A DNA stretch of 64,000 nt from Bradyrhizobium sp. CB1650 (GTDB taxonomy: Bacteria; Pseudomonadota; Alphaproteobacteria; Rhizobiales; Xanthobacteraceae), in NCBI RefSeq assembly GCF_029761915.1, contig NZ_CP121695.1, positions 6,787,501 to 6,851,500 of the forward strand, written 5' to 3'. The first letter of the stretch is position 1; each line of letters starts with the position of its first letter. Below are positions 17,519 through 55,393 of this stretch, piece after piece. A model generated the notes under the pieces. It made no database searches. It was not told where the DNA came from and saw nothing but the letters and a program-made list of their open reading frames with translations. A program made the translations under genes and the position numbers.

Positions 17519-17537
17519 ATTAACGCCATTTCACAAC
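17519..17537 (+). promoter_or_regulatory. GTTGT-element copy d, upstream of the truncated histidine kinase
   Basis: ATTAACGCCATTTCACAAC, whose complement is GTTGTGAAATGGCGTTAAT. It lies about 87 bp before the ATG at 17624, in the same position and orientation as copy f before the intact kinase at 47414. Confidence 0.6.
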
Positions 17538-17623
17538 GCTAAACTCCACTCGATAAGCGAATTGCGCGATGGTGCCTTACCTACAATCGGAGCCTCTATC
17601 TACTCCCGCGTGAGGAGCGCCAA

Positions 17624-17926
17624 ATGCGCAGGACGGAAACTAGCAGTATTCCTTTTGGCCACGCAACGCGAATGGAAGAGCGACCAATCCAGGCGGTGGA
17701 TGATGGCCAAAGCGCCTCTCAACAGCCCCTTGAATTCGGCACTGTCCTGCTTGCGATAGCTGGACACGATCTTCGCCAGCCGCTTCAGGTAATCCAGAAC
17801 GTCCACGATCTGTTTGGACGTGGTGAGCGAACGGACTCAGAGTTGAGCATATTGCGACGCGGCCAGATCGCGATCGATCGACTGAGGGATCAACTCGATC
17901 AATTACTCGGTGCCCTGCGGCCCTGA
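17624..17926 (+). pseudogene. histidine kinase truncated after the dimerisation domain
   Basis: A 100-residue frame, MRRTETSSIPFGHATRMEER, with a fully canonical H box AIAGHDLRQPLQVIQNVHDL and the helix QIAIDRLRDQLDQLLGALRP, then a stop. The ATP-binding domain present in the paralogue at 47414 is absent, and the following DNA belongs to an unrelated old-yellow-enzyme remnant. The leader matches the paralogue closely: GAGGAGCGCCAA before ATG CGC, and a GTTGT element further upstream. It keeps the phospho-acceptor that the neighbouring 16582 gene has lost, while lacking the ATPase that the neighbour keeps. It is most simply a deletion product, though the frame is open and could still be translated. 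Confidence 0.65.
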
Positions 17927-18602: not shown

Positions 18603-19458
18603 ACCTGCACCTGGCTCACTGCGCGTGTCACCAGGCCAGCGACCTGTTGAGCCAAGACGTGGTTCGCGCGACGCGACAATGAGGTGGGCACTCAGCTGAT
18701 GGCGATTTGGTCGCTGGCGAGCTTCCCGCTCGCCAGCGATTGCACGATCACTCCAGACCCTGGATTTGGCTCTGGAGAAACATCCGTAGCGCTTTAGCAG
18801 AGGCTCACCGCGTCTTCCGGTAGCCCAGCCGCGCGCGACGCACACTCGACCCGCGATCTGGCATCCACCGAACGAGCAGGAAACATATGATCTACATGCC
18901 CAATGCGGAACCCGGGCGATCTTGAGCAATTGGGCAGCGGCGTCCGTCGCTTCAAATGAGCGATCAGCCACTGAGTTTATGGTTAGAGCTGCCAACGAAA
19001 GGACGTTCTTCGCCATTTGGACGGCTTACGAAGCAACCGAAAAGCCCTCCTCGCACCAGATGCAAGAAAGTATGCGAACGCCACCCCCATACAAGCGCCT
19101 AGCTTCTTCCGCTCCATGAGCGCGGAATAGCCACGGCATCGTCAGCCAGGATAGGCGCTAACCGCCTTTGATTTCGTTGCGAGCCATTGCACATCGGCTC
19201 ACAAAGTCAGTGATGGCTAAGCACGGATGACACTAACTTCACTCACTAGTTCGTCCGCCGCTTAGCGGCTGTATCGCCTCGGAAGTTCCCTCGCGCTTTC
19301 CGCACAACCGTGGCGGCCCGCTCATCGCTCGGATCCATCTCTACCGGTCTCGCCCACTTCACCGACACTCGACTTCTCGCACATGTAGCCGAGCGAACCA
19401 CGACAACTAACATAGCTGGTCAACGCATTTAACAGGCTTTTACAGAGAACAACACGCC
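18603..19458. other. region without a recognisable gene
   Basis: Several short open frames occur on both strands, none with a recognisable family or supported start. It may be residual DNA from the deletion events that removed the kinase and ene-reductase. Confidence 0.4.
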
Positions 19459-19902
19459 GTGACGCCCGCGACAGGGCATCCTTCCCGCGGCATTTGTCCA
19501 TCTTCCTTGGCGGAAACTGTGATCAAGTCCCACAATCCCCTTGAGACCCCGGTCTCCCTCCCGCCTTTGATCGCGTCTTTGGTCGAAGCGATCAACACCT
19601 TTGACGTCGAGCGCCTAATGACCACTTTCGCCGAAGATGCTCTCGTCAACGATCAGCTAAGAGACTATTGGGGATGGCCGGCAATTAAGGAGTGGGCAGA
19701 ACGCAATATCGTCGGCGAGCGGCTAACGATGAAGGTAACCAAAGTCGCCAATCACTACGGGAACTTCATCGTAACGGCTGATGTTGATGGCAATTATGAT
19801 CAGCGTGGCCTGCCTGATCCGCTCGTGCATGTTTTCTATTGCACCGCGCATGGAAATTTGATTGTCCAGCTGATCATCCTACGCAATCGAGGCCAGATTT
19901 AA
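19459..19902 (+). CDS. NTF2/SnoaL-like protein (paralogue of 14586-15008)
   Basis: A 147-residue frame whose core, LPPLIASLVEAINTFDVERL, MTTFAEDALVNDQLRDYWGW and PAIKEWAERNIVGERLTMKV, aligns residue by residue with the protein at 14586-15008, and which ends VQLIILRNRGQI. The fold is NTF2-like; function is unknown. A GTG at 19459 opens the frame, without a strong ribosome site, so the true start is uncertain and could lie in the variable first 35 residues. It stands immediately upstream of the intact IS3 element and points towards it. Confidence 0.75.
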   Translation: MTPATGHPSRGICPSSLAETVIKSHNPLETPVSLPPLIASLVEAINTFDVERLMTTFAEDALVNDQLRDYWGWPAIKEWAERNIVGERLTMKVTKVANHYGNFIVTADVDGNYDQRGLPDPLVHVFYCTAHGNLIVQLIILRNRGQI

Positions 19903-24565: not shown

Positions 24566-27484
24566 ATGAGCGAGGACTACTTGGGGCTGAATTCCAACAA
24601 AGCGACGCCCGAAACCATAGCCGATAGTCTCGACAACTTGCGGGGCCACAACGATCTTAAGTTCGGCCCCTTCAGTCTCTCCGTTGCAGAGAGGCAGCTA
24701 AGAAAGGGAGATCATTCTATCCCCCTCGGCAGTCGCGCACTGGATGTCCTTATCAAGCTTACGGAACGACCCGGCGAGGTCGTCACGAATAAAGAGCTGG
24801 TTGCGCGCGTATGGCCCGATGTCGTCGTTGAGGAGGCAAATCTCCGCGTGCAAATTGCCGCTCTTCGCAAAGCGCTGGGGGATGGCATCGACAATGCTCG
24901 GTACATATCCAACGTCCCAGGCCGGGGCTATTGCTTCGTCGCGACCATCGCGCAGGGCGTGACAAGAGAAGCTCTACCGCCGCACCTAGCCACCAACGTC
25001 ACGAACCAGATGCAAAAGCTGCCGCCTCTGCTCACCAGAATGGTTGGTCGGGATGAAACTGTTCGCGCGCTGCTCAGCCAAATGACGGCGCGACGCTTCG
25101 TAAGTATTGTCGGTCCCGGCGGCGTCGGAAAGACAACAGTAGCGGTTGCGGTCGGCCACGCGCTCCTCGACGCATTCCAAGGAGCCGTTGTTTTCGTTGA
25201 CCTGGGTGCCCTCACCGATCCCCGCCTGGTTGCGACCGCAGTCGCGTCATCGCTGGGTGTCACGACGAGCTCGCAAGACCCGATGCTCGGCTTGCTCGGC
25301 TTTCTTCGTGACAGAAGAACTCTTCTGATACTTGATAGCTGCGAGCATCTCATCGACGCCGCAGCACAGCTTGGCGAACGCGTCGTGAATGAAACGCCGC
25401 AAGCGCACATTCTTGCGACCAGCCGCGAAGCACTGCGAGCTGAAGGCGAGCACGTTCACTTATTGTATCCTCTCGATACTCCTCCGTATCGCCCCGGCCT
25501 GTCGGCGGACGAAGCACTTCAGTATCCGGCCGTGCAACTCTTCATGGACCGCGCGTTCGCCGCAGGCCACTACTCAGAATTGTCCGATACCGATGCGTTG
25601 GACGTAGCTAGCATTTGTCGTCGACTCGATGGCATAGCCCTCGCCATCGAGCTAGCGGCAAGTCGCGTCGGAAACCTCGGGATCAACGGCACCGCAGAAC
25701 TGCTAGACAACAGGTTCGGCGGGGTCTGGAACGGGCGACGCACGGCCCTCCCGAGACATCAGACTCTGAACTCGATGCTCGACTGGAGTTATAATCTACT
25801 TTCGGATCTGGAGCGTTTGGTCCTTTGTAGGCTTTCCATTTTTGTCGGAGAGTTCACGATCACAGCTGCACGCGATGTCGCGACCGAAGCAGAATTCGAG
25901 GATGCGCACGTCATGCAAGCAGTGACCGATCTGGTCGCGAAGTCGCTCATTTCGACGAAGTCTGGACAGAAATCTACCAATTACCGGCTGCTTGACACGA
26001 CGCGCGCGTACGCGCTGGCCAAGCTCGCTGATCGTGGAGAGGCCGACAGGATCGCCCGTCGGCATGCAGAGACGTTTTGCAGGTACCTCAACGACGACCG
26101 CAATCTTCAATCCGGAAACGTCGACGAAGTCTTGGTGAAGTATGCTTGGCAGATAGGCAACGTGCGGGCTGCTCTAGATTGGGCTCTTTCTGCGCGTGGA
26201 GATCGGGCCATCGGCGTCGAGCTTGCTGCGTGTGCAGCACCACTACTGATTGGAATGTCATTACTCGACGAATGCGCGAATTATTGTCAGTGTGCTCTCG
26301 CGATGATTGATGTGACATCAGGCGACGCGAGATTGGAAATGATCCTGCAACAGGCCTTGGCGCTTTCATCCATGTTCACCAAGGGCAATGGCAATGAAGT
26401 TCGCGCCGCGATCGACCGAGGGCTCCAACTGGCTGAGAACTTGAATGACCGGCCACACCAACTGACGCTCCTAGCTGGCCTAAATGTCTTTCTAACTAGA
26501 ATCGCCGACTTTAGCGGTTCAATTGAAGTTGCGCAGCGCGCACTACGCGTTGCGCAAGCGGACAAGAATGCTGCCGGAATTGTGATGAGTGAGTGGATGC
26601 TCGGGGTCTCACAGCACCTTGCAGGGAACCAGGCAGCAGCACAACGTCATTGCGAGGACGGTATGATTCACGCGGCCGAACTTGGCGCGCTGAATCCGAA
26701 TTGGTTTGGGTACGATCATCGGGTCCGCGCGTTGGTCGCCTTGGCACGTGCTTTATGGCTTCGAGGTCTCTCGGACCAAGCAAGCAGAGCCGCGCAACAA
26801 GCCATCGATGAAGCAGCATATCGAGATCAACCCACTTCGGTCTGCATTTCGTTCATCTATGGGGCTCCGGTCTTCCGGTGGATCGGTGATTTGGATCGAG
26901 CTGAACATTCGTTCGATCAACTTATAAAATGCGCCGAGAGATATTCATTGGCCCCTTACCGGGCCCTTGGCATCGCCTTGAAAGGCGAGGTAATGGTGGC
27001 GCGAGGCGAAGCAGATAAGGGTCTTCGACTGGTGCGAGAAGCGCTTGCGGCCTTGTACTCTGAGCAGCATAAGATCCTGCTGACAGTCTTCACAGCTGCC
27101 TTGGCCGAAGGCCTACGAAAAACCGGACAGCTGGAGGAAGCTCTTCTTACCCTCAACGGAGCCATAAGTCGAGCAACAAGCTGTGGCGCGACATTTGACT
27201 TAGCCGACCTTCTGCGCCTGAAGGCGGAAGTGCTCATGGAGATGCCACAAGGGGATCGCGAGGCAGCCTTGAATTCCCTGAAGGAGTCGATGGAGTTGGC
27301 GCGGGAGCAGTCCGCCCTAGCCTACGAGTTGCGTTCGGCCATAGTCTTAGCACGATTGCTTTCGAAGAGCGGCCAGCGAGACGAAGCAAGAGACATCCTA
27401 GGGCAAGTTTACGGCCGCTTCACTGAGGGTCATGAAACGTCGGATCTCAAATTGGCAAGTTCACTACTCAGGACATTGCAATAA
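24566..27484 (+). CDS. winged-helix / NB-ARC ATPase / TPR-like transcriptional regulator (paralogue)
   Basis: A 972-residue protein of the same layout as the divergent 21317-24181 gene: winged helix (LGSRALDVLIKLTERPGEVV, ARVWPDVVVEEANLRVQIAA, NVPGRGYCFVATI), Walker A VSIVGPGGVGKTTVAVAVGH, LLILDSCEHLIDAAAQLGER, RRLDGIALAIELAASRVGNL, then helical repeats. The two differ substantially and are not a recent duplication. Its winged helix and last 130 residues are much closer to the mini-protein at 54398-55393 than to its divergent partner. It is followed after 180 bases by the CRGC-protein gene on the same strand, whose regulation it might influence, though this is only positional. Confidence 0.88.
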   Translation: MSEDYLGLNSNKATPETIADSLDNLRGHNDLKFGPFSLSVAERQLRKGDHSIPLGSRALDVLIKLTERPGEVVTNKELVARVWPDVVVEEANLRVQIAALRKALGDGIDNARYISNVPGRGYCFVATIAQGVTREALPPHLATNVTNQMQKLPPLLTRMVGRDETVRALLSQMTARRFVSIVGPGGVGKTTVAVAVGHALLDAFQGAVVFVDLGALTDPRLVATAVASSLGVTTSSQDPMLGLLGFLRDRRTLLILDSCEHLIDAAAQLGERVVNETPQAHILATSREALRAEGEHVHLLYPLDTPPYRPGLSADEALQYPAVQLFMDRAFAAGHYSELSDTDALDVASICRRLDGIALAIELAASRVGNLGINGTAELLDNRFGGVWNGRRTALPRHQTLNSMLDWSYNLLSDLERLVLCRLSIFVGEFTITAARDVATEAEFEDAHVMQAVTDLVAKSLISTKSGQKSTNYRLLDTTRAYALAKLADRGEADRIARRHAETFCRYLNDDRNLQSGNVDEVLVKYAWQIGNVRAALDWALSARGDRAIGVELAACAAPLLIGMSLLDECANYCQCALAMIDVTSGDARLEMILQQALALSSMFTKGNGNEVRAAIDRGLQLAENLNDRPHQLTLLAGLNVFLTRIADFSGSIEVAQRALRVAQADKNAAGIVMSEWMLGVSQHLAGNQAAAQRHCEDGMIHAAELGALNPNWFGYDHRVRALVALARALWLRGLSDQASRAAQQAIDEAAYRDQPTSVCISFIYGAPVFRWIGDLDRAEHSFDQLIKCAERYSLAPYRALGIALKGEVMVARGEADKGLRLVREALAALYSEQHKILLTVFTAALAEGLRKTGQLEEALLTLNGAISRATSCGATFDLADLLRLKAEVLMEMPQGDREAALNSLKESMELAREQSALAYELRSAIVLARLLSKSGQRDEARDILGQVYGRFTEGHETSDLKLASSLLRTLQ

Positions 27485-37569: not shown

Positions 37570-39012
37570 CTACGGAGCACCCGCATGACGCTGCAAGGAT
37601 GGCTCTTCGCTGAGGGACGCGCTCCGCGGCGGCACATTTGCAAACAACGGGCCGAATCCTTCGGCGATTGTGAGGTGAGCGATGACAGCATCACGTAATT
37701 TTTGGTATGGCAAGCCCGCGAGTATAGCAGCCTGGATGGCAGCCATGACCTCGCCAGCCTCGGAACCAATCATTGAAAATCCGAGGATACGATCGTCGTT
37801 CGCGCTAATGACCGCCTTCATGAAGCCGTCGGTTTCGTCGGTTGCCTCCGTGCGCAGGACATTGCTCATGGGCAGCCTTGCAAGGCGCACGGGGATACCT
37901 TGCCGCTTGGCTTCTTGCTCGGAAAGGCCGACGCGGGCTACCGGCGGATCAGTGAATACGACATAAGGAATGAGCCGATCGTCGGTTCTGCGGTTGCCGC
38001 CAGCCATGTTGTCCCTGACAATCCTGAAGTCATCGACCGAGACGTGCGTGAACTGGGGGCTGCCGCAGCATTCGCCGATGGCCCAGACACCGGGAGCAGT
38101 CGTTTGCAACCGCTCGTTGACTCGAATGAAGCCGTGCGCATCGAGTTCGACTCCGGCTCCCTCGAGGCCGATGCCAGCGGTGTTCGCGACCCGGCCAACT
38201 GCGACAAGCAAGTCGCTGCCTTCGATTTTCTGTTCTCCTTCGGCCGTCCGCACGGTCACCGCTACCGCATCGCCAGAAAGTCCATATACGCTGACAGGCT
38301 GGACGTTCAGCAGCACCTCGATCGCTTCGGTGCTAAGAATGCGTTGAACCTCCTCGGCGACATCGTCGTCTTCCCGCCCCAAGAGCTGGCGACCTGGCTC
38401 GATGATCGTCACCCGGCTGCCGAACCGACGAAAAGCCTGTGCCATCTCGATACCGACATAACCGCCCCCCAGCACGATCAGGTGCGAGGGCAAGTAGTCG
38501 AGCTCAAGCGCTTCGATGTGGGTGAGCGCACGAGCTGCCTCGAGACCCGGGATGTCCGGAACGGCTGCGTGCGAACCGACATTGATGACAACCTCATTGC
38601 CGCTGAGCAGGCGGCTACCTCCGTCGTTCAACGCGACTTGCACAGTTTTCGGGCCCACGAAACGGCCACTGCCCATGATGAGGTCGACGCCGCTCTCCTT
38701 GTAGGCCTTCAAATGGAATGCGATCTCGCGGTCGATCATGTCCTGCTTGCGGCTGCGGACCTTGCGCATATCGGTTTTCACGGCATCAGTCAGCGTACCG
38801 AACTGCGCTGCGTGCCGGACGAGGTGGGCGATCCGTGCACTCCAAAGCTCGTTCTTCGACGGGAGACAGGCGACCGCTGGGCAGGAGCCGCCGACCCAAC
38901 GGCGCTCGACGACGGCAACTCGCTTGCCGGAACGGCCAAGGTGCCACGCGAGCAGCTTTCCGCCCTGTCCGCTGCCGAGAATGACGATATCGAAGTGTTC
39001 CGTTTCTGGCAT
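37570..39012 (-). CDS. class I pyridine nucleotide-disulfide oxidoreductase (RclA/mercuric-reductase-like)
   Basis: A 480-residue flavoenzyme. The FAD fold FDIVILGSGQGGKLLAWHLG is followed by the redox-active pair in VGGSCPAVACLPSKNELWSA (C44 and C49), the NAD(P) fold LIVLGGGYVGIEMAQAFRRF, the second FAD contact GVWAIGECCGSPQFTHVSVD and a dimerisation domain with HLTIAEGFGPLF, where the usual HPTxxE His-Pro is HLTIAE. It is not a typical lipoamide dehydrogenase because no 2-oxoacid dehydrogenase genes are near; RclA-type metal or disulfide reduction is more likely. The ATG at 39012 is preferred to an upstream in-frame start. A GTTGT element lies 141 bp upstream. Confidence 0.85.
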   Translation of the reverse strand: MPETEHFDIVILGSGQGGKLLAWHLGRSGKRVAVVERRWVGGSCPAVACLPSKNELWSARIAHLVRHAAQFGTLTDAVKTDMRKVRSRKQDMIDREIAFHLKAYKESGVDLIMGSGRFVGPKTVQVALNDGGSRLLSGNEVVINVGSHAAVPDIPGLEAARALTHIEALELDYLPSHLIVLGGGYVGIEMAQAFRRFGSRVTIIEPGRQLLGREDDDVAEEVQRILSTEAIEVLLNVQPVSVYGLSGDAVAVTVRTAEGEQKIEGSDLLVAVGRVANTAGIGLEGAGVELDAHGFIRVNERLQTTAPGVWAIGECCGSPQFTHVSVDDFRIVRDNMAGGNRRTDDRLIPYVVFTDPPVARVGLSEQEAKRQGIPVRLARLPMSNVLRTEATDETDGFMKAVISANDDRILGFSMIGSEAGEVMAAIQAAILAGLPYQKLRDAVIAHLTIAEGFGPLFANVPPRSASLSEEPSLQRHAGAP

Positions 39013-39152
39013 GGACGTTTCTCTCGGTGATGTCTCGGAAGTGATGGGATCCGATGGCGCGATATCGCTACTTATGGATTCACCAGTGCGCGATCGTCCG
39101 CCCCTGCGCATCCTAGATAATCGCGCATTGTTCGCAGCCGAGCGAGTTTAAT

Positions 39153-39171
39153 GTTGTAAGATGGTGTTGAT
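39153..39171 (-). promoter_or_regulatory. GTTGT-element copy a, upstream of the disulfide reductase
   Basis: GTTGTAAGATGGTGTTGAT on the plus strand, preceded by GAGCGAGTTTAAT. It is oriented towards the leftward reductase, 141 bp from its start. It is paired back to back with copy e at 39348, 176 bp away. Confidence 0.6.
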
Positions 39172-39347
39172 TGTCGGTCTCCTCGCGAGGTCAAGCGCGC
39201 CCGCCACACTGATGTTTCCGCACTTCGCAAAGTCGAATCGATCTGGACGGGCCCTTTCGCCGAAACAGCCAAATGCTGAATCACTTTGAAAGTCGACATA
39301 TTCGGCCTTGCTCGACGCGTCACCCAGAAGAGGCAATTTCAGCGACG

Positions 39348-39366
39348 ATCAATATCGTTTCACAAC
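39348..39366 (+). promoter_or_regulatory. GTTGT-element copy e, no gene left downstream
   Basis: ATCAATATCGTTTCACAAC (complement GTTGTGAAACGATATTGAT). It has the orientation of copies d and f, which precede small histidine kinases, but here only non-coding DNA follows before the 3' end of poxB on the other strand. The kinase gene was probably lost. Confidence 0.55.
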
Positions 39367-39579
39367 ACTACACCCGCTTTCGTTACGAGATTGCGCCCTC
39401 TCCGGCGACAGCGGACCAGTCATCGTATGATCCAGACCACTGACACGATTCACGGCCATCACTGCTCTGCACTTATTGCAAGCAAACCGAGGAGTCCACG
39501 CATGTCCAGTCCTCCCGTCTTCGCCTCGGCGGCCGTTCTGTCGACACGCTATCTTCCTTGCACAAGTGCGTCTCGATCG

Positions 39580-41307
39580 TCACCTTCTGATGAAGTTCGA
39601 TAAGGTCAGGTCGACCAGCTGATCGCCACGTCCGTTCATCACGGCCCGCAGCGCCCAGAGGCCAAATCCCTTCACCTGCTCCGCTTGAATCTTCGGAGGC
39701 AAGGCGAGTTCCTCCGCGTTCGTCACGACGTCAAGCAGCGCCGGTCCATCATGCGCAAGAATATCCTTGACCGCAGCTTCCAGATCGCCCGGATTCTCCA
39801 CGCGTACGCCATGTATTCCGGCAGCTGCGGCCACGGCCGCGAAATTCGGATTTCGCAAGTTTGTACCGGTCTCGAGAAACCCGGCCGCCTTCATCTCCAA
39901 CGCAACGAAGCCGAGTGTCGAATTGTTGAATACAACGACTTTCAACGGCAAATTCTGCTGCGAAAGCGTAAGGAACTCTCCCATGAGCATCGCAAAACCG
40001 CCGTCGCCCGAAAGGCTGATAACTTGGCGCTTGGGAAACGCGACTTGCGCGCCGATGGCCTGCGGCAGCGCGTTCGCCATCGAGCCGTGCGCCAACGAGC
40101 CAATCATGCGGCGTCTGCCGTTCATGCGGAGGTAGCGCGCCGCCCAAATCGTCGGAGTTCCAACATCGAAAGTGAAAACCGCATCTTCCGATGCGTGCTC
40201 ACTGATCAGGCGCGTCAGATATTGCGGATGGATCGTCCGCCCCGCTACGCCGACAGCCAGATCGTCCAGGCCTGCGCGAGCCTTCTTATAGTTTGCGAGA
40301 GCGTCGGCGAGATGAGCGTCGTCCCGCTTTGCCTTCAGGTTCGGCAAGAGTGCGGCAAGCGTCGCTTTGACGTCACCGACAAGGCCAAGATCAAGGCGGG
40401 TTCTCCTGCCGAGGTTTTCCGGACGTAGGTCGACCTGCGCGATCTTGGCATCTGTCGGATAGAACTGACGGTAGGGGAAATCGGTGCCGAGCATCAATAG
40501 CGTGTCGCAGGCCAGCATCGCCTCGTAGCCCGATGAGAAGCCGATCAGGCCGGTCATTCCGACATCGTAAGGATTTTCCCATTCGATGTGCTCTTTGCCG
40601 CCAAGCGCGTGGACGATCGGCGCGCGCAGACGCTCAGCCAAAGCGATCACCTCGTCATGCGCATCTGCGCATCCTCGTCCGCAGAGCAACGTTATTCTGT
40701 CGCCTTCCTCCAGCATCCTCCGCAGCTTGTCCAACTCGGCGGGACTTGGCGCTACGATTGGCTGCTGCAGCGCCAGTCCATTGGAAGCGGATATGGCGGC
40801 CTTGTAATTTGCCAACGCGACATCACCCGGAATCACGACGACGGAGACGCCACGTCTCCCGATTGCAGCTCGCACGGCGGATTCGAGTACACCCGGCAGC
40901 TGATCCGGCTGGGAGACGAGTTCGCAGTAGTGGCTGCACTCGCGAAACAGCTGATCTGGATGTGTTTCCTGAAAGTAGCCGCGGCCGATCTCATTCGATG
41001 GAATTTGCGCAGCGATTGCAAGAACTGGCACACGAGAGCGGTGGCAATCGAAAAGGCCGTTGATCAGATGGAGGTTCCCGGGGCCGCAACTGCCGGCACA
41101 CACGGCAAGCTCGCCTGTGAGGTGAGCCTCGGCTCCTGCCGCAAAGGCCGCGGCTTCCTCATGACGCGTGTGGATCCACGCGATATCTCCACGACGTCGC
41201 ACAGATTCCGAAAAGCCATTCAGAGTATCGCCGACGATTCCGTAGACCCGGCGTACGCCGATCGAGCTCAGAATCTCCGTGATGGTATCGGCCGCACTAT
41301 GTGCCAT
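39580..41307 (-). CDS. poxB: thiamine-diphosphate pyruvate:quinone oxidoreductase (pyruvate oxidase)
   Basis: A 575-residue ThDP enzyme. The catalytic Glu lies in [20 protein letters not shown] (about residue 50), followed by [20 protein letters not shown]. The FAD-binding middle domain contains [19 protein letters not shown], and the ThDP/Mg site is [20 protein letters not shown] then [20 protein letters not shown]. This pattern fits PoxB (pyruvate + quinone to acetate + CO2) rather than acetolactate synthase. The C-terminal tail ([11 protein letters not shown]) resembles the amphipathic membrane-binding segment of PoxB. Its ATG lies inside the 3' end of ndh (overlap 11 bases), so it is translationally coupled as the last gene of maeA-ndh-poxB. 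Confidence 0.9.
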
Positions 41308-42649
41308 GTGCTATCTCCTGCTTCGGTTGTTCGCGATTCGCGACGAAGGCCTCGTTCATCGCAAGCGGACCAATTGCATGTCCTGGCGCGCCATCCGAAA
41401 TCAGCCGCGCGCTTCGCTGGCGCGTCATGAAGCTGCAGAGCCAATCAAATGCGACCACGACTTTGCTCCGAACGCCGATGAGAAAGAGAATGTGGACGAG
41501 GCTCCAGAACATCCACGCGACAAAGCCGGACAACCGCAACTTGCCCATGACTACCACTGCCGATTTCCTGCCGATGACCGCTAGATCACCCTTGTGCTTG
41601 TACGAAAAGGCGGGCGGATCCGGCTCGTTGTGGACGCGCGCTGCAATGAGCTGGCCAACATAGCGGCCCATTTGCTTGGCTGCGGGAGCCAACCCTGGAA
41701 CGGGCTTTCCTCCAGATTGGGCCGCACTCGTGTCTCCGATGACAAAGATGTTTCCGTACGGCGGCGCGGAGAGATCGGACCTTACGATCACCCTATTTGA
41801 TTTATCGTGCTCCACGTCGAGCCACTGCGCCGCTTTTGACGCCTGAACGCCGGCCGCCCACACCACCGTCGCGGCGTCAATTCGTTCCGGCCCTAGACAG
41901 ACTCCGCGCTCGGTACATTATGTCACGCTCGAGCCGGTTCTGACCTCCACGCCCATCTCGATCAATGAGCGCTTGCAGCGCTCCGATAGACATTCAGGGA
42001 AGACTGGTAGACGCCTCGGGCCGGCCTCGACCAGGACGATCCTCATTTTTCCTGGATCGATCCTTCTGAACTCCCCCTTCAGCGTTCGATGCGACAATTC
42101 AGCAACGGCTCCTGCCATTTCCACGCCGGTCGCTCCGCCGCCAATGATAACCGTCGTGAGGCAGCGTCGCCGGACCTCGTCGTCTTCGCTTCGCTCCGCC
42201 AATTCGCACGCGAATAGAAGCCGCTCGCGAAGAGCTCGTGCATCGTCGATTGTTTTGAGACCAGGAACAAATCGCGCCCAATCCGGATGACCGAAATAGG
42301 CGTGTGTGGCGCCGGTAGCGACGACGAGATAGTCATAGGATAGCGTCGCCACGCCATCGCTCACGGTTTGGCTGGCCGGGTCGATGGAGTTGATCTCCAT
42401 CATCACGACGCGGACGTTTTTCTGGCCGGCGAAGACCGACCTCACCGGCCAGGCGACATCTCCGGGCGAAAGCGCGGCGGTAGCCACCTGGTACAGCAAT
42501 GGTTGGAAGAGATGAAAGTTTCTGCGATCGATAAGCGTGATCTCGACCGGCGCCAACTTGAGTGTCCTGGCCGTGGAAAGGCCGCCAAAGCCTGCACCGA
42601 TGATGACCACGCGTGGCGACGCCGCGGATAAATGTCCGATTCTGCCCAT
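41297..42649 (-). pseudogene. ndh: type II NADH dehydrogenase interrupted by one in-frame stop codon
   Basis: A 451-codon frame that is perfect except for a TAA at 41918-41920 (codon 244). Before it are the FAD fold RVVIIGAGFGGLSTARTLKL, FQPLLYQVATAALSPGDVAW, the NADH fold TVIIGGGATGVEMAGAVAEL and EMGVEVRTGSSVT. After it, in the same frame, are CTERGVCLGPERI, TVVWAAGVQASKAAQWLD, IFVIGDTSAAQSGGKPVPGL and the membrane-anchoring C-terminus. NDH-2 oxidises NADH and reduces quinone without pumping protons. A point mutation, a sequencing error or read-through are all possible. It starts 14 bases after maeA and overlaps poxB. Confidence 0.88.
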
Positions 42650-42663
42650 CTCGTCGACCTGCG

Positions 42664-44295
42664 CTAATCGATGCGACGGTAGGCAGGAATGTAGGCTTTG
42701 TCGCGGATTAGACAGCTGACATCTTGCGGGCGCGCTATTCGGGCGAATCCGTGATCAAAGACGTATTCCGCGATCCTTGCAGCTACGTGCAGCGAAGCAG
42801 TCAATATCTTGCTCTGCGGCGGATATATCAGGCCCACATCGAGACTATCCTGGCCGACTTGCTCGGCAACAGCGTTGGCGGCAATGATGAACATCTCATC
42901 CGTCACCCGCTTGGCTTCGGTCGCGTAGACCGCCATTCCCATGGCAGGAAAGATATAGACGTTGTTGCCCTGGCCTGGCACGAAGTGCTTGCCGCCGACG
43001 GTCAATGGTGGAAACGGACTGCCGCTCGCGAAGATCGCGCGACCCTTCGACCAGGTGTACGCTTCCTCCGCCGTGCATTCCGACCGAGACGTCGGGTTAG
43101 AGTACGGGAAGATGATCGGCCGCTCGTTGATCTCCGAAATGGCCTCGACGACTTTTTGGTTGAACAGTTTTGGGACTGTGCTTACGCCAATGATGCCGGT
43201 CGGTCTCAGAGCCTTGATCGCATCAGCAAAGTCGCCTACCGACGCGTGCTCGATCGCGAAAGGCTCTTGAAAGTCCATGAGCTTTCTCGATGACGTCAGC
43301 AAGCCATTAACGTCGAACAAGTTGTTCCGGCTTCTCGCCTCCCGCAGGCTAAGCCCTTCCTTAGCCATCGCCTGTGAGATCAACTCGGCTATGCCCGTCG
43401 CCGCAGAACCAGCACCGAGAAAGAGGAACCTCTGATCGGTGAGCTTTTGGCCGCTGATCCGCAACGCCGCGTAAATGCCGGCCAGGGCCACCGACGCCGT
43501 GCCCTGGATGTCGTCATTGTAAGTGCAGATTCTGTCCCGGTACTTTGCCAGGATTGGGACAGCGTTGATGTTGGCAAAGTCTTCCCACTGGATGCAGCTT
43601 TTCGGGAAGAGCTCTTGTACGGCTTCGACGAATTCGTCGATGAAAGCGTAATACGGTTCACCGCGCACGCGCGATTGGCGCAGACCAAGATAGAGCGGAT
43701 CCTCGAGAAGAGCTGCATTATTCGTTCCAACGTCGATCGTGATCGGAAGACAAAGGTCCGGCGGGACGCCTGCGCAAGCGGTATAGAGGGCGAGCTTTCC
43801 GATAGGAATACCCATGCCGCCGACGCCGAGATCGCCAAGACCGAGAATCCGTTCGCCATCGGTGACGACGATGAACCGCACGTCCTTCTCCGGCCAATTG
43901 GAAAGCAATTGCTTGACGCGGCCCCTGGACGAAATCGGCAGGTAAATTCCACGAGCGGCATGGAAGATGTGGTCGAACTTCTGGGAAGCCTCACCAACGG
44001 TCGGTGTGTAGACAAGCGGCATGAACCCGGCCGGGTCGGACATCAAGACCGCGTAGTAAAGAGTCTCATTTCGCGCTTGCAAGTCAGATAAGAATAGATA
44101 TTTCTGCAGATCATTGTCCAACATTGCAAGCTGAGTGTGTATACGGGCTATCTGGTGGTCGAGCGACGTGGGTACCGGCGGCAGCAAGCCTTCAACACAG
44201 AACTTTCGTCGCTCTTCATCAGAGAAGGCCGTTCCTTTGTTGGTTTGCGGGTTGCGCAACAATGCATAACCCTTGCTACCAATATTCAAGGTCAT
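42664..44295 (-). CDS. maeA: NAD-type malic enzyme (MaeA family)
   Basis: A 543-residue enzyme that oxidatively decarboxylates malate to pyruvate with formation of NAD(P)H. Key regions are MPLVYTPTVGEASQKFDHIF with the catalytic Tyr, VVTDGERILGLGDLGVGGMG, IDVGTNNAALLEDPLYLGLR, QWEDFANINAVPILAKYRDR, NDDIQGTASVALAGIYAALR and the dinucleotide fold FLFLGAGSAATGIAELISQA. The long N-terminal extension and overall length match the E. coli MaeA type, not the phosphotransacetylase-fused MaeB. It is the first gene of maeA-ndh-poxB, with a GTTGT element 259 bp upstream. Remnants of a second, diverged malic enzyme occur at 9640-10120 and 28850-28985. Confidence 0.94.
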   Translation of the reverse strand: MTLNIGSKGYALLRNPQTNKGTAFSDEERRKFCVEGLLPPVPTSLDHQIARIHTQLAMLDNDLQKYLFLSDLQARNETLYYAVLMSDPAGFMPLVYTPTVGEASQKFDHIFHAARGIYLPISSRGRVKQLLSNWPEKDVRFIVVTDGERILGLGDLGVGGMGIPIGKLALYTACAGVPPDLCLPITIDVGTNNAALLEDPLYLGLRQSRVRGEPYYAFIDEFVEAVQELFPKSCIQWEDFANINAVPILAKYRDRICTYNDDIQGTASVALAGIYAALRISGQKLTDQRFLFLGAGSAATGIAELISQAMAKEGLSLREARSRNNLFDVNGLLTSSRKLMDFQEPFAIEHASVGDFADAIKALRPTGIIGVSTVPKLFNQKVVEAISEINERPIIFPYSNPTSRSECTAEEAYTWSKGRAIFASGSPFPPLTVGGKHFVPGQGNNVYIFPAMGMAVYATEAKRVTDEMFIIAANAVAEQVGQDSLDVGLIYPPQSKILTASLHVAARIAEYVFDHGFARIARPQDVSCLIRDKAYIPAYRRID

Positions 44296-44553
44296 GAACA
44301 GCTCCTAGTCATTCGATGAGAGGTGACGTCGCTTCCTTTGAGACGCGCCGTCGTGGGAAGCCATCGGGTAATGCTCAGCCCAGGACGCGTTTGCCGCCAG
44401 GCCCCAGGTGACAACCGCTGCTCAGACCCCTCGCTTGGTTGCCCAGTTTGCAGATCTGCCATTCGGTCTCACACATGCGTGCTCTCTTAAACGGCGGGGA
44501 TTTAGATTGCGTGGAGCATCATTGCGCTGTCCTCCCAGCCGAGCGAGTCTAAT

Positions 44554-44572
44554 GTTGTAAGATGACGTCAAA
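44554..44572 (-). promoter_or_regulatory. GTTGT-element copy b, upstream of maeA-ndh-poxB
   Basis: GTTGTAAGATGACGTCAAA, preceded by GAGCGAGTCTAAT exactly as in copy a (one base different). The right half is the least conserved of the six. It is oriented towards the leftward malic enzyme operon. Confidence 0.55.
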
Positions 44573-44714
44573 CGTTGGCGCTTAAAGACCTCGCGCGCTG
44601 CGCGAACCGGTTGACGGCCTGACCGCGACGAATGTTGGTGATTATTCGGCATCCTTTAGGCACGTCCACCGGACGCAGTGAGATGGCCACGTGCACGTCA
44701 ATAGTCTTTGCCGT

Positions 44715-45080
44715 TCAGCAGCCGCGACAGATGATCAATTTTCGATCCAGTTCGGCGTCGAGGCGTCGTTCTTGACGCTCCCACGTTGAGAGGACCTCGG
44801 GCGGAGGCACATCGGCCCTTCGAGGTTGGCGATGGCCGATCGGCGCCTGCCACGGCAATCGTGATGTTAACTCTAACGCGCGGTTTTGGGCCGGGACTGG
44901 TGTCGCAACGTAGTTCTTGTCATTCTTTACGCTGGCATCGACTTGGAGATCGGGGAAGACATCGACGTTGTTTTGCTTCCCAGCAGCAAAGACCGGCGCA
45001 GGCGCGCCGAAGAGAGCGACACCTGCCGCCACGAGTACACCGTTGATGGCCGACTGTTTCACGATCGAGATTGACGACAT
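44715..45080 (-). CDS. small secreted protein with C-terminal ICRGC motif (second copy)
   Basis: A 121-residue protein, MSSISIVKQSAINGVLVAAG, with a signal peptide cleaved near APVFA. The mature part is AGKQNNVDVFPDLQVDASVK, then a proline-rich stretch and RQERRLDAELDRKLIICRGC at the C-terminus. Only the last dozen residues resemble the protein at 27663-27941 (LDKRLRICRGC), which argues that this terminal block is what selection maintains. The function is unknown; a metal- or heme-binding or redox role for the CxxC-like end is a guess. The upstream DNA (45293-45437) is shared with the receptor cyclase operon, suggesting common control. Confidence 0.72.
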   Translation of the reverse strand: MSSISIVKQSAINGVLVAAGVALFGAPAPVFAAGKQNNVDVFPDLQVDASVKNDKNYVATPVPAQNRALELTSRLPWQAPIGHRQPRRADVPPPEVLSTWERQERRLDAELDRKLIICRGC

Positions 45081-45292
45081 GACGACGCGCTTTGTGTTGA
45101 GACTCTCGACGACTGGATCCAGCCAAACCTATTAATGCCGCTACAGATCGCGGATATGCTCATCCATCTCACCATTCCTGATCGGCCCACCCGTGGCCTT
45201 AGCTCGCGGTTGTGGCTAGATGTCGCGGCTGGCCGGGCACGCGCAGCGGCCACCGTTTGGCAGTACGCGTAAGGGGTTGCGGACTTCCTACG

Positions 45293-45437
45293 GTTGAGAG
45301 CCACTTCGAAGCGCCTTAGGGCAACATGTAAACGCGAAAACGCGAATCTTGTCTGTTTCGGAAGTGACGCTATTTAGGTTGTCTTGCGTCAATCATCGCT
45401 ATTGCTCATCGCAGCGGTTCGCCTTGAGAAGACGCCC
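45293..45437 (-). promoter_or_regulatory. conserved upstream block, copy 2 (CRGC protein gene)
   Basis: Partner of 33173-33318, with GAGAGCCACTTCG, AACGCGAAAACGCGAA, TCTGTTTCGGAAGTGAC and CTTGCGTCAATC. It lies 213-357 bp upstream of the CRGC start in the same relative orientation as the copy in front of the cyclase. Confidence 0.55.
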
Positions 45438-45960
45438 TCAGGGCCGCCTTTGACGCGGCAGGCGGAGAAAATCGTAGTGTGCGACTGGCCGCCAACGTCG
45501 GTTCTTCTAGATTGGACCGGTTGCGCGTCGATCCCTGTCAAGTGTCCAAAACAGCGGCCGAAATGCGTACCGTTTTGGACGGCCATGCCGGACACCGCCA
45601 ACATGCCCACCAGAGTCAGCTCGGGTCCATACGGATCAGCTTGGCGACCGGCAGCGATGAAAACACTGAGCGCGGCAAGCAAGAAGAGAAATTGCAGGAC
45701 AAGCAGCGGCAACAAGGATGGAGCCGCAATCCAATCAAGACCGGCAACAAACAATCGGGTCAGGATCAGGATCATTATGAACACCGGCGCCAGTTCAGCA
45801 TGGGATAAGGGCGATGGCTCATGGACCGCTAGCCGGGCGGCGAGAACGACCAGATTGCCGGTGATGTGCAATCGACCCCCAACCCAAGGAAGCCTGTAAC
45901 ATCGAGGCTACCGGCAACCAGTCTCAAGATGAACGGAAGCGAGTTCAGCCAAAGAACGTC
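45389..45960 (-). pseudogene. DUF1275 (YoaK-like) membrane protein remnant
   Basis: Leftward frames give SLPFILRLVAGSLDVTGFLG, then in another frame HITGNLVVLAARLAVHEPSP, APVFIMILILTRLFVAGLDW, LPLLVLQFLFLLAALSVFIA and ELTLVGMLAVSGMAVQN. That is the first two thirds of a YoaK/DUF1275 protein with the hallmark D(V/A)xGFLGL...HITGN. After AVQN the sequence is unrelated. One frameshift near 45870 and loss of the C-terminus make it non-functional. Confidence 0.65.
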
Positions 45961-46039
45961 TCTTGACGGAGCCGGAGTAATTCGGCCGCGACTTGAAGAT
46001 GGCAGTGTCGACAGCCCAGATTGGCAAGAACTCGTCATA

Positions 46040-46370
46040 CACCCACCCGTTTTCCGGCGGTCGAACCGGGAGTATGACTGGAAGTCGGTGCAAGTGAGAT
46101 CCGGGCCACGGCGTAGCACGTGGCCCATTTGAGTAACACGCTGACAGCAATCCTAGCGACCGTATCGAGCAGACGCGCAGCAGCGATCGTTGCAAGGCGT
46201 GCGTCTGATCGAGCGCGCCACCACCCGGGCAACGCCAACCCAATTGCGAAGGATGGAAGGATAGTGTGGCACGTGATTGTGAACACGAACTGGATTCGCG
46301 AAAGGATAAACGCCGCCACTTCCGAAGGACCTCTAGGTCCGTGATCGTCCGATGTCGGGGGAACGCTTGA
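46040..46370 (-). pseudogene. cytochrome bd oxidase subunit I (CydA) N-terminal fragment
   Basis: The frame contains ILSRIQFVFTITCHTILPSF and AIGLA, the first transmembrane helix of CydA with its haem-ligand His in the xFHxxFPxFxIGLA context (here CHTILPSFAIGLA). The rest of the roughly 500-residue subunit is missing or unrecognisable and no cydB was found. It is a dead fragment. Confidence 0.6.
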
Positions 46371-46511
46371 CTGTGCCCACGGCCGTCGGCCGGATTGCAC
46401 ACCCACTCGATTTGAAAAAGGTAGAGTTCCTCAGGGATTGTGGGCGCCCCCACGAAACGGGGCGCCCGATTAGGAGCAAGTTGACGGCAAGTTGCGCGAG
46501 GGGCACTCGCT

Positions 46512-47015
46512 TCACTGCTCCGCGACGCGAACGAGATCCTGCTTTAAGAGATAGAGCGACACGGCGAGCAGCACGACGTCCTTCATCAAGAACGGCACAT
46601 TGCCGGTCATAGCCGGAAATCCGGCTACGGGATCCCAGCCGTCCGGCATGAAGGGAATGATCGTGACCGTCCCGATGAAGGTCGCGGTCGAACCAAGGGC
46701 GCCGAGGATGCCAAGCCGCTTGTCCCAGAAGCCTGCAAGCAGAAGTGCTCCAAAGGTCCATTCGGACACGCCGAGCAACCAGCTCGCACCCTGATGGCTG
46801 AACACGAGATACAACCACGAAATCAGCGGACCATTGCTGATGAACGGAACAAGCCGCTCCGCCTCGTACGCCCACCACTTCTGGTAACCGAAGAGGAAAA
46901 ATATGATTACCATCGAGGTGCGGATGATGTGATAATCGAGATCTGACGTGAGCAGGATCGATCTACCTAATTTTCCGACAAACGGATTGCGTGTAGTGTC
47001 CATAAGCGCGTTCAT
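46512..47015 (-). CDS. DUF417 (YkgB/RclC-like) inner-membrane protein (second copy)
   Basis: A 167-residue membrane protein paralogous to 29073-29573: TSMVIIFFLFGYQKWWAYEA, GASWLLGVSEWTFGALLLAG, LGILGALGSTATFIGTVTII and PFLMKDVVLLAVSLYLLKQD. The ATG at 47015 follows GAGGAGTACGCA, so the longer in-frame start at 47255 is rejected. A GTTGT element lies 110 bp upstream, paired with a divergent copy before the histidine kinase at 47414. The first DUF417 copy lacks such an element. Confidence 0.87.
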   Translation of the reverse strand: MNALMDTTRNPFVGKLGRSILLTSDLDYHIIRTSMVIIFFLFGYQKWWAYEAERLVPFISNGPLISWLYLVFSHQGASWLLGVSEWTFGALLLAGFWDKRLGILGALGSTATFIGTVTIIPFMPDGWDPVAGFPAMTGNVPFLMKDVVLLAVSLYLLKQDLVRVAEQ

Positions 47016-47124
47016 TGCGTACTCCTCTACGCGGCAACCGACCAGTACCGAAAGTCGATTGGGTGTGTGCTTGTGAGATACGTCGGAGAGCTTCACCCAA
47101 TCCTCGTCGCTGTACGAGTTCAAC

Positions 47125-47143
47125 GTTGTAAGAAAGTGTTGAT
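47125..47143 (-). promoter_or_regulatory. GTTGT-element copy c, upstream of the second DUF417 gene
   Basis: GTTGTAAGAAAGTGTTGAT, preceded by ACGAGTTCAAC. It is oriented to the leftward DUF417 gene and lies back to back with copy f, 167 bp away. Confidence 0.6.
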
Positions 47144-47310
47144 CGGCGGGAAGCCACGGCAGCGCGTAGTTCGAAATCGACTGTCTCGAACTGTTCGGTG
47201 ACCGACCTCGCGAGCCTTTGCCGTGCGGTGTCTGCTCTCGTGGTCTGCCGACCAATGCGGCGGTGCTTTCCCTCTATGCGTTGCGCTGCAAGAGGAATTC
47301 AGTAACGACG

Positions 47311-47329
47311 ATTAACATTATCTCACAAC
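47311..47329 (+). promoter_or_regulatory. GTTGT-element copy f, upstream of the intact small histidine kinase
   Basis: ATTAACATTATCTCACAAC (complement GTTGTGAGATAATGTTAAT), preceded by AACGACG as in copies d and e. It lies 85 bp before the ATG at 47414. Confidence 0.6.
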
Positions 47330-47413
47330 GCTCAGCTCGCTTCCCTTGGGCGATTGCTCGATGCTTGTCTCCAATCGCGAGCCAACAGTGCAATTTTACT
47401 TGAGGAGCGCACC

Positions 47414-48217
47414 ATGCGCGAAACAGTCGGACTGACCAAGATAAGGGACTCCCGCGAGATTTTTGATGCAGCGCGGATCACAAAGAGACCTATTACCTGG
47501 AGCATGACGGCGAAGGCGGATCCACAAACGCCCTTGGAGTTCGAGTCCGTGCTACTGGCGATAGCAGGACACGATCTCCGTCAGCCACTTCAAGTGATCC
47601 AAGGCGCTCACGATTTCCTCGGTCTCGGCCTTCGAACGGCGTCCGAATTGCGTCTGCTGCGGGCCGGCCAGAGTGCTATCGATCGGCTGAAGGACCAGCT
47701 TGATCAGTTACTCGCCGCTGTCCGCTTTCGCGAGCATGTGGAGGGAGTTAAGTTGACGCCGGTCCCGGTTGCCCCCCTGTTTCGACAAGCTCGTCACGAG
47801 CATGAGATTGCGGCCCTAAGCAAAGGCGTCAGTATTCGGACCGTCCAGACCACCGCCACGATCCATAGCAACGCGCTGCTTCTCAGTTCTGTCCTGCGCA
47901 ACTTGGTTGGAAACGCTATAAAATACACAGAACCTGGTGGACGCATTCTCCTGGGTTGCCGTCACGTCGGCGATAGCATTCGTATCGATGTCCATGATAC
48001 TGGAATCGGCATCACGGCAGACCAAATGCCTCGCATTTTTGAGGCATTCACTCGACTCGATCCGACGCGACGCGACGGTCTGGGGGTCGGCCTGTTCATC
48101 GTGCGCCAAGCCGTCGGCCTATTAGGGTATCGTGTCGATATCAACTCAGCACCATCACGAGGAACGCGATTTTCACTCTTCGCACCAAAAGTCGAGAAAG
48201 CAGCGCAACCCTATTAA
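47414..48217 (+). CDS. small cytoplasmic sensor histidine kinase
   Basis: A 267-residue protein with no membrane segment or recognisable sensor domain. The H box is LLAIAGHDLRQPLQVIQGAH (His53). The ATP-binding domain has VLRNLVGNAIKYTEPGGRIL, DVHDTGIGITADQM, IFEAFTRLDPTRR and LGVGLFIVRQAVGLLGYRV. The start at 47414 has GAGGAGCGCACC before ATG CGC, nearly identical to the leader of the truncated paralogue at 17624. No response-regulator gene is adjacent. It is divergent from a DUF417 gene, and each start has its own GTTGT element. The input is probably cytosolic, perhaps redox, but the sequence does not reveal it. Confidence 0.88.
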   Translation: MRETVGLTKIRDSREIFDAARITKRPITWSMTAKADPQTPLEFESVLLAIAGHDLRQPLQVIQGAHDFLGLGLRTASELRLLRAGQSAIDRLKDQLDQLLAAVRFREHVEGVKLTPVPVAPLFRQARHEHEIAALSKGVSIRTVQTTATIHSNALLLSSVLRNLVGNAIKYTEPGGRILLGCRHVGDSIRIDVHDTGIGITADQMPRIFEAFTRLDPTRRDGLGVGLFIVRQAVGLLGYRVDINSAPSRGTRFSLFAPKVEKAAQPY

Positions 48218-54397: not shown

Positions 54398-55393
54398 TTA
54401 GGCCAAAGACGCCAGAAACGCTCTCGCATCTCGAAGATCAGGCGTCTCAAACTCTTCCGTAAAGCGGTCAAAAATGGGTGCCAGGATGCTCCTTGCCTCT
54501 TCCGGCTGGCCTCCCTCGGAAAGCAACCGCGCAAGTGTTGTGGCCGCGCGCAGCTCGTAAGCAAGAGCAGATTGGTCTCGCGCAAACCTTAGTGACTGCC
54601 TAAGGCAATCCAGAGCCGCCGCAACGTCCTTTTGTGGCGCGGCCGCGAGCACCTCAGCTTTTAGGCGCAGCAGTTCGGCTACGTGAAAGGTCGCACCTAA
54701 GCTTGTCGCTTGGCCTATCGCTCCGTCAACGGTCAATAGCGCTTCGTCGAACTTGCCCGCTTTTAATAGCCCTTGCGTCAGAGCGCCCGCAAATACAGTC
54801 AAGAGAATATTGTGGTGTTCGGAATGCAGGGCTCCAAGCGCGCTTCGTACCAATTCGATACCAACGTCTGCTTGCCCACTTGCTGCTGCGATCCCATTTT
54901 TGAAACCGGCACCTGGGGCTTGACTGGCCCGCGGGGAAGCTTGCTTCAGAGAGGGACCCATCACAGCCGCCACGAAGCAATAGCCACGGCCCGCGACATT
55001 AGACACGTACCGAGCGCCGTCTACACCATCGCAGAGCACTTTACGAAGACTAGCGATATGCCCCCGAAGATTTGCTTCTTCCACAGTAACGTCTGGCCAA
55101 GCCCGCGCGATGAGATCCTTATGACTGATAACTTCGCCGGCGCGCTCCACCAAGACGGTCAGAAGATCGAACGCACGACCGCCAATGGGAAGTGTTTCCT
55201 CGCCCTTCTTTAATAACCGCTCAGCTACGGACAGTTTGAATGGGCCAAAGACAAACTCGTTGTTGACGCGGAAACCGTTGATCTCCGGAATGAGCTCAGA
55301 TGCGCGCTCTTCCATCGGCGAAGGCCTAGCCTCAAAGCTCTGGAATCCAACGGGCATACGTGTGCGACCTTTTGTGTCGAGGTCTATGAGCAT
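54398..55393 (-). CDS. mini winged-helix regulator: DNA-binding domain fused directly to the TPR end, ATPase core missing
   Basis: A 331-residue protein. The winged helix FGPFKLSVAERLLKKGEETL, ARAWPDVTVEEANLRGHIAS and NVAGRGYCFVAAV matches the N-terminus of the 24566-27484 regulator. After a 30-residue linker rich in Ala, Gly and Ser (SPRASQAPGAGFKNGIAAAS) it resumes with GIELVRSALGALHSEHHNIL, LTVFAGALTQGLLKAGKFDE and ELLRLKAEVLAAAPQKDVAA, colinear with the last 130 residues of that protein. About 630 residues, including Walker A and the NB-ARC core, are absent yet the frame is intact. It may be a fixed deletion product or a deliberate ATPase-free regulator. The exact start is uncertain (ATG at 55393 or 55316). 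Confidence 0.78.
   Translation of the reverse strand: MLIDLDTKGRTRMPVGFQSFEARPSPMEERASELIPEINGFRVNNEFVFGPFKLSVAERLLKKGEETLPIGGRAFDLLTVLVERAGEVISHKDLIARAWPDVTVEEANLRGHIASLRKVLCDGVDGARYVSNVAGRGYCFVAAVMGPSLKQASPRASQAPGAGFKNGIAAASGQADVGIELVRSALGALHSEHHNILLTVFAGALTQGLLKAGKFDEALLTVDGAIGQATSLGATFHVAELLRLKAEVLAAAPQKDVAAALDCLRQSLRFARDQSALAYELRAATTLARLLSEGGQPEEARSILAPIFDRFTEEFETPDLRDARAFLASLA

Follow-up and report, generated by a model that had tools for sequence, protein, structure and literature searches.

OmpR-type DNA-binding domains, such as those that read the OmpR and PhoB boxes, bind head-to-tail direct repeats of about 10-11 bp. AfsR and other large SARP regulators have an operator of direct repeats 11 or 22 bp apart, which overlaps the -35 region and lies 8 bp from the -10 box (PMC10936776). 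Here we analyse a repeated element in 64,000 nucleotides of Bradyrhizobium sp. CB1650 (contig NZ_CP121695.1, positions 6,787,501 to 6,851,500; hereafter the window). The element is real, rare and conserved, has a defined repeat form and marks redox-protection genes in some members of Bradyrhizobium and of one or more neighbouring genera. We give a probability of about 0.7 to the reading that its copies are operator-promoters which control redox-protection genes and orphan kinases, and to which a family of AfsR-like STAND regulators (here REG) would bind.

A first-pass annotation of the window had listed six copies of a 19-mer, all of which were recovered in place with 0-2 mismatches to the consensus given then. 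Matches to the 19-mer with two or fewer mismatches number six in the window, compared with a mean of 0.03 and a maximum of 1 in 100 dinucleotide shuffles, and seven in the 9.43-Mb genome, namely the six copies and locus L006. At up to three mismatches, the genome holds 33 matches versus 18 for a reversed control, and the 19-mer alone is, therefore, specific only at two or fewer. A sequence-only covariance model of 62 columns (R1) was built from the six window sites. Its genome scan at E<=10, in which 150 of 1,253 first-look candidates were scored, returned exactly these six sites and nothing else; L006, the only other match at up to two mismatches, was not recovered by R1. A second model (R2), built from 46 sites of several genomes, added a seventh window site upstream of a degenerate kinase (16467-16525, E 3.6e-4). 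This site overlaps a mechanical open reading frame (ORF) at 15803-16579, which has no Pfam hit.

Conservation had been put at about 35 bp; it actually extends over about 58 bp, from about -15 to +42 relative to the first T of TTACAAC, and includes a second downstream block, ATTGCGCGAnGCT. Read in the direction of transcription, the conserved sequence is 5'-ACGATTAACAnnATCTTACAACGTTRAACTCGC-N8-GAnnATTGCGCGAnGCT-3', where N8 stands for eight loose bases. The strand signs first assigned to the copies agree with the direction of the downstream genes, although the motif as then written reads on the opposite strand. The two GTT halves 13 bp apart proposed earlier are replaced by a 10/20-bp direct-repeat register, which was assessed on 30 of 47 sites (those less than 80% identical to each other) using 100 column permutations. 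For the direct repeat at 20 bp, none of the 100 permutations scored as high at w=9 and six did at w=7, while inverted symmetry was at chance level (17/100 and 15/100 permutations). The element thus has the tandem direct repeats, one helical turn apart, by which an OmpR/PhoB-type operator is recognized.

We propose that the element consists of three head-to-tail repeats of about 10 bp, ACGATTAACA, nnATCTTACA and ACGTTRAACT, and that the conserved GAnnATTGCGCGA stretch just downstream of them would provide the -10 box, the discriminator and the +1 A. Judging from the sequence, GAnnAT at positions 26-31 may serve as the -10 box, which would place +1 at the conserved A38, with the repeats spanning -53 to -24. 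As the repeats lie just upstream of this presumed -10 box, a bound regulator would cover the -35 region, where it could recruit RNA polymerase, as PhoB and AfsR do.

Conservation was assessed in a genus sample of 265 genomes, with 20 candidates per genome scored by R1. Matches at E<=0.1 were found in 27 of them; the loci of stronger hits were fetched, and weak R1 hits around 16 bits (G062, G064 and others) were left out of the counts. Together with the window, the fetched loci contain 47 R1 matches at E<=0.01, 41 of which lie outside the own genome (R1 having been built from the window only). R2 matched at E<=0.01 in 18 of the 265 genomes, with a best E value below 1e-6 in 13, the same ones that carry R1 hits at E<1e-3; one genome, G055, has 16 R2 sites at E<=0.01. 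Beyond the genus, two genomes of a 391-genome family sample have R2 matches at E<=0.001. One of them (G433), from a genus on which R2 was not trained, carries a complete REG-REG-SnoaL-element-kinase module; in the other (G390), the element lies 3.2 kb from a REG of 46% identity. Within an order sample of 397 genomes, R2 matched the own genome only.

The 47 R1 matches and eight R2 sites form a set of 55 sites. All window copies had been described as intergenic, and we judge this to hold for the copy at 47125 because the conserved start of the DUF417 gene lies at about 47015, although the copy falls within a mechanical TTG-start ORF (46512-47255). Across the set, 40 of the 55 sites are free of ORFs of at least 120 aa and 15 are overlapped by mechanical ORFs, some of which are antisense frames or start extensions of the downstream gene. 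A module gene, that is, a homologue of our query families, starts within 700 bp of 38/55 sites in the direction of the element and of 9/55 in the mirror direction. These nine mirror cases are divergent pairs: eight of DUF417 and kinase, plus the 39343 copy beside RclA.

Targets were tallied as the best-scoring same-strand homologue starting within 700 bp of each of the 55 sites. Kinases were the most frequent (16/55, including remnants and one 25%-identical PAS kinase), followed by DUF417 (5/55, one at 34%), MaeA (5/55, one a distrusted short match of 37%), RclA-like reductases (4/55), CMD (3/55) and OYE (2/55). In one of the OYE cases, the homologue is a fragment that lies 539 bp behind the 17514 site, and this site has a kinase remnant as well. 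A degenerate kinase, a peroxiredoxin and a GST account for one site each, and in 17/55 none of the query families was found downstream on the same strand within this distance. The 39348 copy was fairly called orphaned, having no same-strand module-gene homologue within 700 bp downstream. Several genomes retain, at the orthologous promoters, the copies that precede RclA, maeA and DUF417. The sequence evidence, a rare site conserved across species at short distances from the same gene families and with a helical-turn repeat, gives good support to the earlier suggestion that a common regulator may act on a direct-repeat site. As side observations, one locus (L086) carries two copies of equal R1 score about 9.6 kb apart (2156-2213 and 11748-11805) before CoA-transferase-like sequences, the second of which is a rearranged copy, and another (L111, 599293) gave no tblastn match to the module queries.

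We propose that an AfsR-like regulator, in which a winged helix of the OmpR type is joined to a STAND/NOD ATPase and a TPR solenoid, binds the repeats, REGa (24566-27484) being the best candidate encoded in the own genome. REG proteins have 950-990 aa and comprise an OmpR-type winged helix, which matches PDB structures of the ToxR, CadC, OmpR and PhoB DNA-binding domains, a STAND/NB-ARC ATPase and TPRs. The AlphaFold model of REGa (8 sequences, mean pLDDT 80, pTM 0.58) shows a winged helix, an ATPase and a long helical solenoid, and its best Foldseek match is the STAND-TPR protein 6mfv. The first-pass annotation had named response regulators as candidate binders, which our results do not support. 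What co-occurs with the element is a regulator of the winged-helix/STAND/TPR type, without a receiver domain by Pfam. Pfam finds no BTA domain either, and the model places the start of the STAND part about 30 residues beyond the winged helix.

Scoring three candidates per genome in the genus sample, we found REG homologues above 1000 bits in 10/265 genomes, all among the 13 with strong elements, while a large winged-helix/STAND/TPR regulator at E<=1e-150 to the query is present in 186/265. A REG homologue or fragment of at least 60 aa lies within 1 kb of 13 and within 4 kb of 20 of the 41 R1 sites found in other genomes; with four to ten REG homologues per genome, we estimate that fewer than one site would have one within 1 kb by chance. 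The order REG-SnoaL-element on one strand was found at 13/55 sites, with a kinase next in seven, one of which belongs to another genus; further along, several of these loci have CMD, DUF417, GST and cupin genes. Four genomes with weak element hits (G039, G118, G152 and G094) have a REG of about 50% identity within 1 kb. Two further observations concern REG itself. Just right of the window (L112:2513-8350), a REG homologue of 41% identity has a FixJ-like response regulator on either side. A kinase (59%) and a REG (48%) resembling those of Bradyrhizobium are encoded on L196, a contig that was binned as Edaphobacter sp. RYN_7 and is probably misplaced.

Once engaged, the circuit would activate genes for redox and electrophile protection, namely the RclA-like reductase and the DUF417/RclC-like protein and, in relatives, CMD/AhpD-like proteins, GST, OYE and peroxiredoxin. 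Further targets would be an orphan sensorless kinase and maeA-ndh-poxB, which would form a malate-pyruvate-quinone branch of respiration. Activation, the presumed signal (thiol, chlorine or electrophile stress) and a role of the kinase are what we infer for this circuit. The phosphoacceptor histidine is kept in 6/9 aligned kinases of the element group and replaced by D, E or Y in 3/9. The replacements are D in the window (16540-17379), E in L096:12636-13454 and Y in L106:4247-5080, and the ATPase domain is kept in these proteins.

Boxes with the same period were also found beside paralogous regulators. REGs of 44-48% identity at loci that lack the element are followed directly by CCTAACAACTTCTAACA-like double repeats, again with a period of 10 bp. 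CCTAACAACTTCTAACACG at up to one mismatch gave 36 sites in 35/107 genomes, compared with 0 for the reversed control, and 31/36 lie 47-53 bp 3' of a REG. Of the remaining five, one is about 150 bp and two are about 1.3 kb 3' of a REG homologue, and two have none in the fetched stretch. In a third REG group, CTCACAACTTCTCACA lies on the 5' side of the regulator gene and on the opposite strand. The core TNACANNNTCTNACA (at least 9/10 positions) is present in the flanks of 24/49 non-redundant REGs and 39/68 of all REGs, versus 1.6 and 2.5, respectively, after shuffling and 2/111 for other ORFs of the same loci. Behind REG, SnoaL genes have TTTACA-n4-TTTACA (at least 10/12 positions) in 11/13 loci, a count made without a chance control. 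Separately, an element-like triple repeat can be present as a second box on the 5' side of GSLRF-clade REGs, in opposite-strand orientation, as in L296 and L297. A strict recognition-helix-to-box code was rejected, only a tendency being seen. More tentatively, and with somewhat less than even confidence, we suggest that these proteins may form an alphaproteobacterial family of one-component STAND regulators with a readable operator code (clade boxes TTAACA/CTTACA, CTAACA/CTAACA and CTCACA/CTCACA). One clade would govern a redox regulon that includes orphan kinases, some of them lacking the histidine, which would act as partners of the ATPase regulator instead of in a phosphorelay.

Several observations weigh against the reading of the elements as REG operators. 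The middle repeat copy is placed by the 10-bp relation, while the permutation test covered the 20-bp relation only, and the proposed -10 box is weak. The own genome has no REG within 1 kb of any element; three genomes with strong elements (G222, G082 and G106) have no intact close REG (best 47-48%), the REG in the same cluster of G222 being truncated and 58% identical. Shared descent can likewise keep an element and a REG linked. Among the paralogues, 25/49 non-redundant REGs have no core TNACANNNTCTNACA in the flanks scanned, this core was defined after part of these loci had been seen, and recognition-helix class and box type are only loosely associated. The kinase, at 54% identity or more, is present in 18/265 genomes, seven of which have no R2 match at E<=0.01; in the loci fetched for these seven, R2 matches are weak (14-17 bits) in L158, L160, L161 and L164 and absent from L159, L162 and L163. 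The kinase family is, therefore, not always under the element. The first-pass annotation had suggested scanning the genome and its relatives, with background frequency, intragenic position or loss at orthologous promoters as counter-evidence. The scan was mostly favourable to the element, except that kinase-CMD-DUF417-GST clusters of two element-bearing genomes (L167 in G058 and L168 in G080) have no R2 match at E<=1.

The main rival to REG binding is that the sensorless kinase, which would autoregulate its own gene, phosphorylates a response regulator of the FixJ/NarL type and that this regulator binds the site. Kinase relatives outside the element group in L108 (own genome), L109 and L175 pair with FixJ-like (LuxR-type) response regulators, which keeps such a regulator in play; two more lie just right of the window (L112), and L167 and L168 have them within 5 kb of a kinase. 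LuxR-type response regulators are, however, common in Bradyrhizobium. Under the element itself, the tblastn survey of element loci showed such a pairing in L105 only, where the element precedes a PAS kinase followed by a LuxR-type regulator, and none appeared among the matches beside the window kinase. Moreover, dyads are the usual binding sites of LuxR-type domains, while the element has direct-repeat form, and the phosphoacceptor histidine, though kept in six of the nine element-group kinases, is replaced in three. We consider this rival unlikely.

A quite different account, that the copies are leftovers of kinase-locus duplication whose promoters travelled with the gene copies and form no shared regulon, would fit the several elements that precede kinase remnants sharing a leader peptide start, as well as the frequent transposase genes in the window. 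It is very unlikely given the retention of the RclA, maeA and DUF417 copies at orthologous promoters and the lack of common flanks among the six window copies. Still less likely is a reading of the site as the operator of a regulator of the LysR or AraC type whose gene lies close to some loci: LysR adjoins CMD in L107 and in L096 and L089, and AraC occurs in L096, but few of the tblastn-surveyed element loci have either, and the association with REG is broader. By analogy with ECF41, whose target families (CMD, oxidoreductase and epimerase genes) are similar (PMC3426412), the element might be the promoter of an alternative (ECF) sigma factor. We regard this as the least likely account, since about 58 bp are conserved with most of the information in the upstream repeat, and Pfam detected no ECF gene among 29 distinct window ORFs, although one may be encoded elsewhere in the genome.

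Other classes of element were considered and rejected. A structured RNA was dismissed because RNAalifold predicted 0 pairs in the element and Rfam gave 0 matches at the gathering score within the window. A mobile repeat (MITE/REP-like) does not fit, as there is no flank conservation outside the element and 38/55 sites point at a module gene versus 9/55 in the mirror direction. A sigma-54 reading of the TTGC in the downstream block was discarded because, by eye, GG is absent at the right distance.

The features of the window are listed in Table 1. The best PDB chains for the window reductase are 6kgy/6kod, which we take to be E. coli RclA. The reductase scores 357.5 bits against NF040477 (RclA), below the cutoff of 740, and the DUF417 protein scores 62 bits against NF040476 (RclC), below the cutoff of 275. 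The label 'redox/electrophile' is, therefore, a putative one, and an HOCl regulon proper was rejected on the same two scores. The ndh gene is broken into two parts that lie in different frames, 41918-42649 and 41297-41866. The pattern of the tentative double repeat before the SnoaL-like gene has four matches in the genome, versus one for the reversed control, and similar boxes precede SnoaL at other loci. Around the element genes are transposase and recombinase genes (Mutator-type, rve/HTH_21 and serine recombinase; 15256-15939, 20008-21161, 48598-49674 and 50150-51838). The OYE, CMD, kinase and regulator fragments in the window suggest the decay of a larger module. At the left edge, window positions 1-1303 and the 10 kb just outside the window (L113) contain LysR, peroxiredoxin, OYE, CMD-like, DUF417, cupin and GST genes of the module families; L113 has no R2 match at E<=1. 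A partial AraC-like match (41%) lies at 10357-10671, an AraC gene being also present in L096, and no AraC-type gene was found beside the window elements among the matches of that one tblastn query. Elsewhere in the window, a dCache-guanylate cyclase gene (31044-32996) adjoins a periplasmic binding protein gene (29755-31392).

Table 1. Element copies, candidate regulators, kinases and associated genes of the window (window coordinates; for elements, the strand is the direction of transcription)
Feature	Position	Strand	Evidence or remark
Element before RclA-like flavoprotein disulfide reductase	39117..39177	-	R1 55.3 bits
Orphan element, no same-strand module gene within 700 bp downstream	39343..39400	+	R1 46.9 bits
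Element before maeA-ndh-poxB, 223 bp from maeA start	44518..44577	-	R1 50.8 bits
Element before DUF417/RclC-like gene (start about 47015)	47089..47148	-	R1 48.8 bits
Element before intact small histidine kinase	47306..47365	+	R1 54.3 bits; repeats about 47308-47337, putative -10 about 47349-47354, putative +1 about 47361
Element before truncated kinase remnant	17514..17573	+	R1 50.9 bits
Seventh, diverged element before degenerate kinase	16467..16525	+	R2 23.3 bits, E 3.6e-4
Tentative related double repeat before SnoaL-like gene	19430..19453	+	Pattern match, 1 mismatch
REGa, proposed binder; intact regulator with OmpR-type winged helix, STAND ATPase and TPRs	24566..27484	+	Pfam Trans_reg_C, NB-ARC, TPR
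REGb, a more distantly related second regulator whose DNA-binding domain is of the same kind	21317..24181	-	Different recognition-helix region
Fragments of third REG homologue	54404..55351	-	tblastn, 50-55% identity
Small sensorless histidine kinase, HDLRQPLQ, likely start 47414	47354..48217	+	Pfam HisKA and HATPase_c
Paralogous kinase, phosphoacceptor H replaced by D	16540..17379	+	Pfam HATPase_c only; alignment
Truncated kinase remnant	17624..17926	+	
RclA/MerA-like flavoprotein disulfide reductase, conserved start about 39012	37570..39111	-	Pfam
Malic enzyme, maeA-like	42664..44295	-	
NDH2-type NADH dehydrogenase (ndh), between maeA and poxB	41297..42649	-	
poxB, ubiquinone-dependent pyruvate dehydrogenase	39580..41307	-	NF006591 982 bits, above cutoff 792
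DUF417/RclC-like membrane protein	46512..47015	-	Pfam DUF417
SnoaL-like protein; in relatives often adjoins the regulator	19459..19902	+	tblastn 65%
Second SnoaL-like protein	14586..15008	-	tblastn 61%

The kind of regulator and the kind of site are both known elsewhere, while the REG family, its operator and its target set were not found described in the literature searched, which gave no described operator for the large winged-helix/STAND/TPR regulators common in Bradyrhizobium. If our reading is correct, it supplies a candidate class of signal together with the target sequence and the list of targets, which makes these regulators testable, and it illustrates the spread of one operator to unlinked redox genes. 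It also raises the question of what sensorless kinases, some copies of which lack the phospho-histidine, do in such a circuit.

Compared with OmpR and PhoB, REG has a winged helix that matches their structures, and the element has head-to-tail repeats of about 10 bp, although REG has no receiver domain by Pfam and the OmpR and PhoB box sequences differ from that of the element. The RclR-rclABC reactive chlorine regulon of E. coli, whose regulator RclR is of the AraC type, resembles the present one in that an RclA-like reductase and a DUF417/RclC-like gene are found under one element; it differs in that the window proteins fall below the NCBI equivalog cutoffs for RclA and RclC and in the larger number of targets here. 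The ECF41 promoter motif is laid out differently from the element. Like the element, it is conserved before CMD and oxidoreductase genes, whereas ECF41 is itself a sigma factor, for which just one target transcript was detected (PMC3426412). AfsR and the large SARPs of Streptomyces share the OmpR-type winged helix, the NOD/STAND ATPase and TPRs, and operators with direct repeats one or two helical turns apart that overlap the -35 region near the -10 box (PMC10936776). Against the same source, the repeat period is 10/20 bp here rather than 11/22, and REG has no BTA domain by Pfam; it may, therefore, be said to work like a SARP but not to be one, and its putative targets are redox genes in an alphaproteobacterial host.

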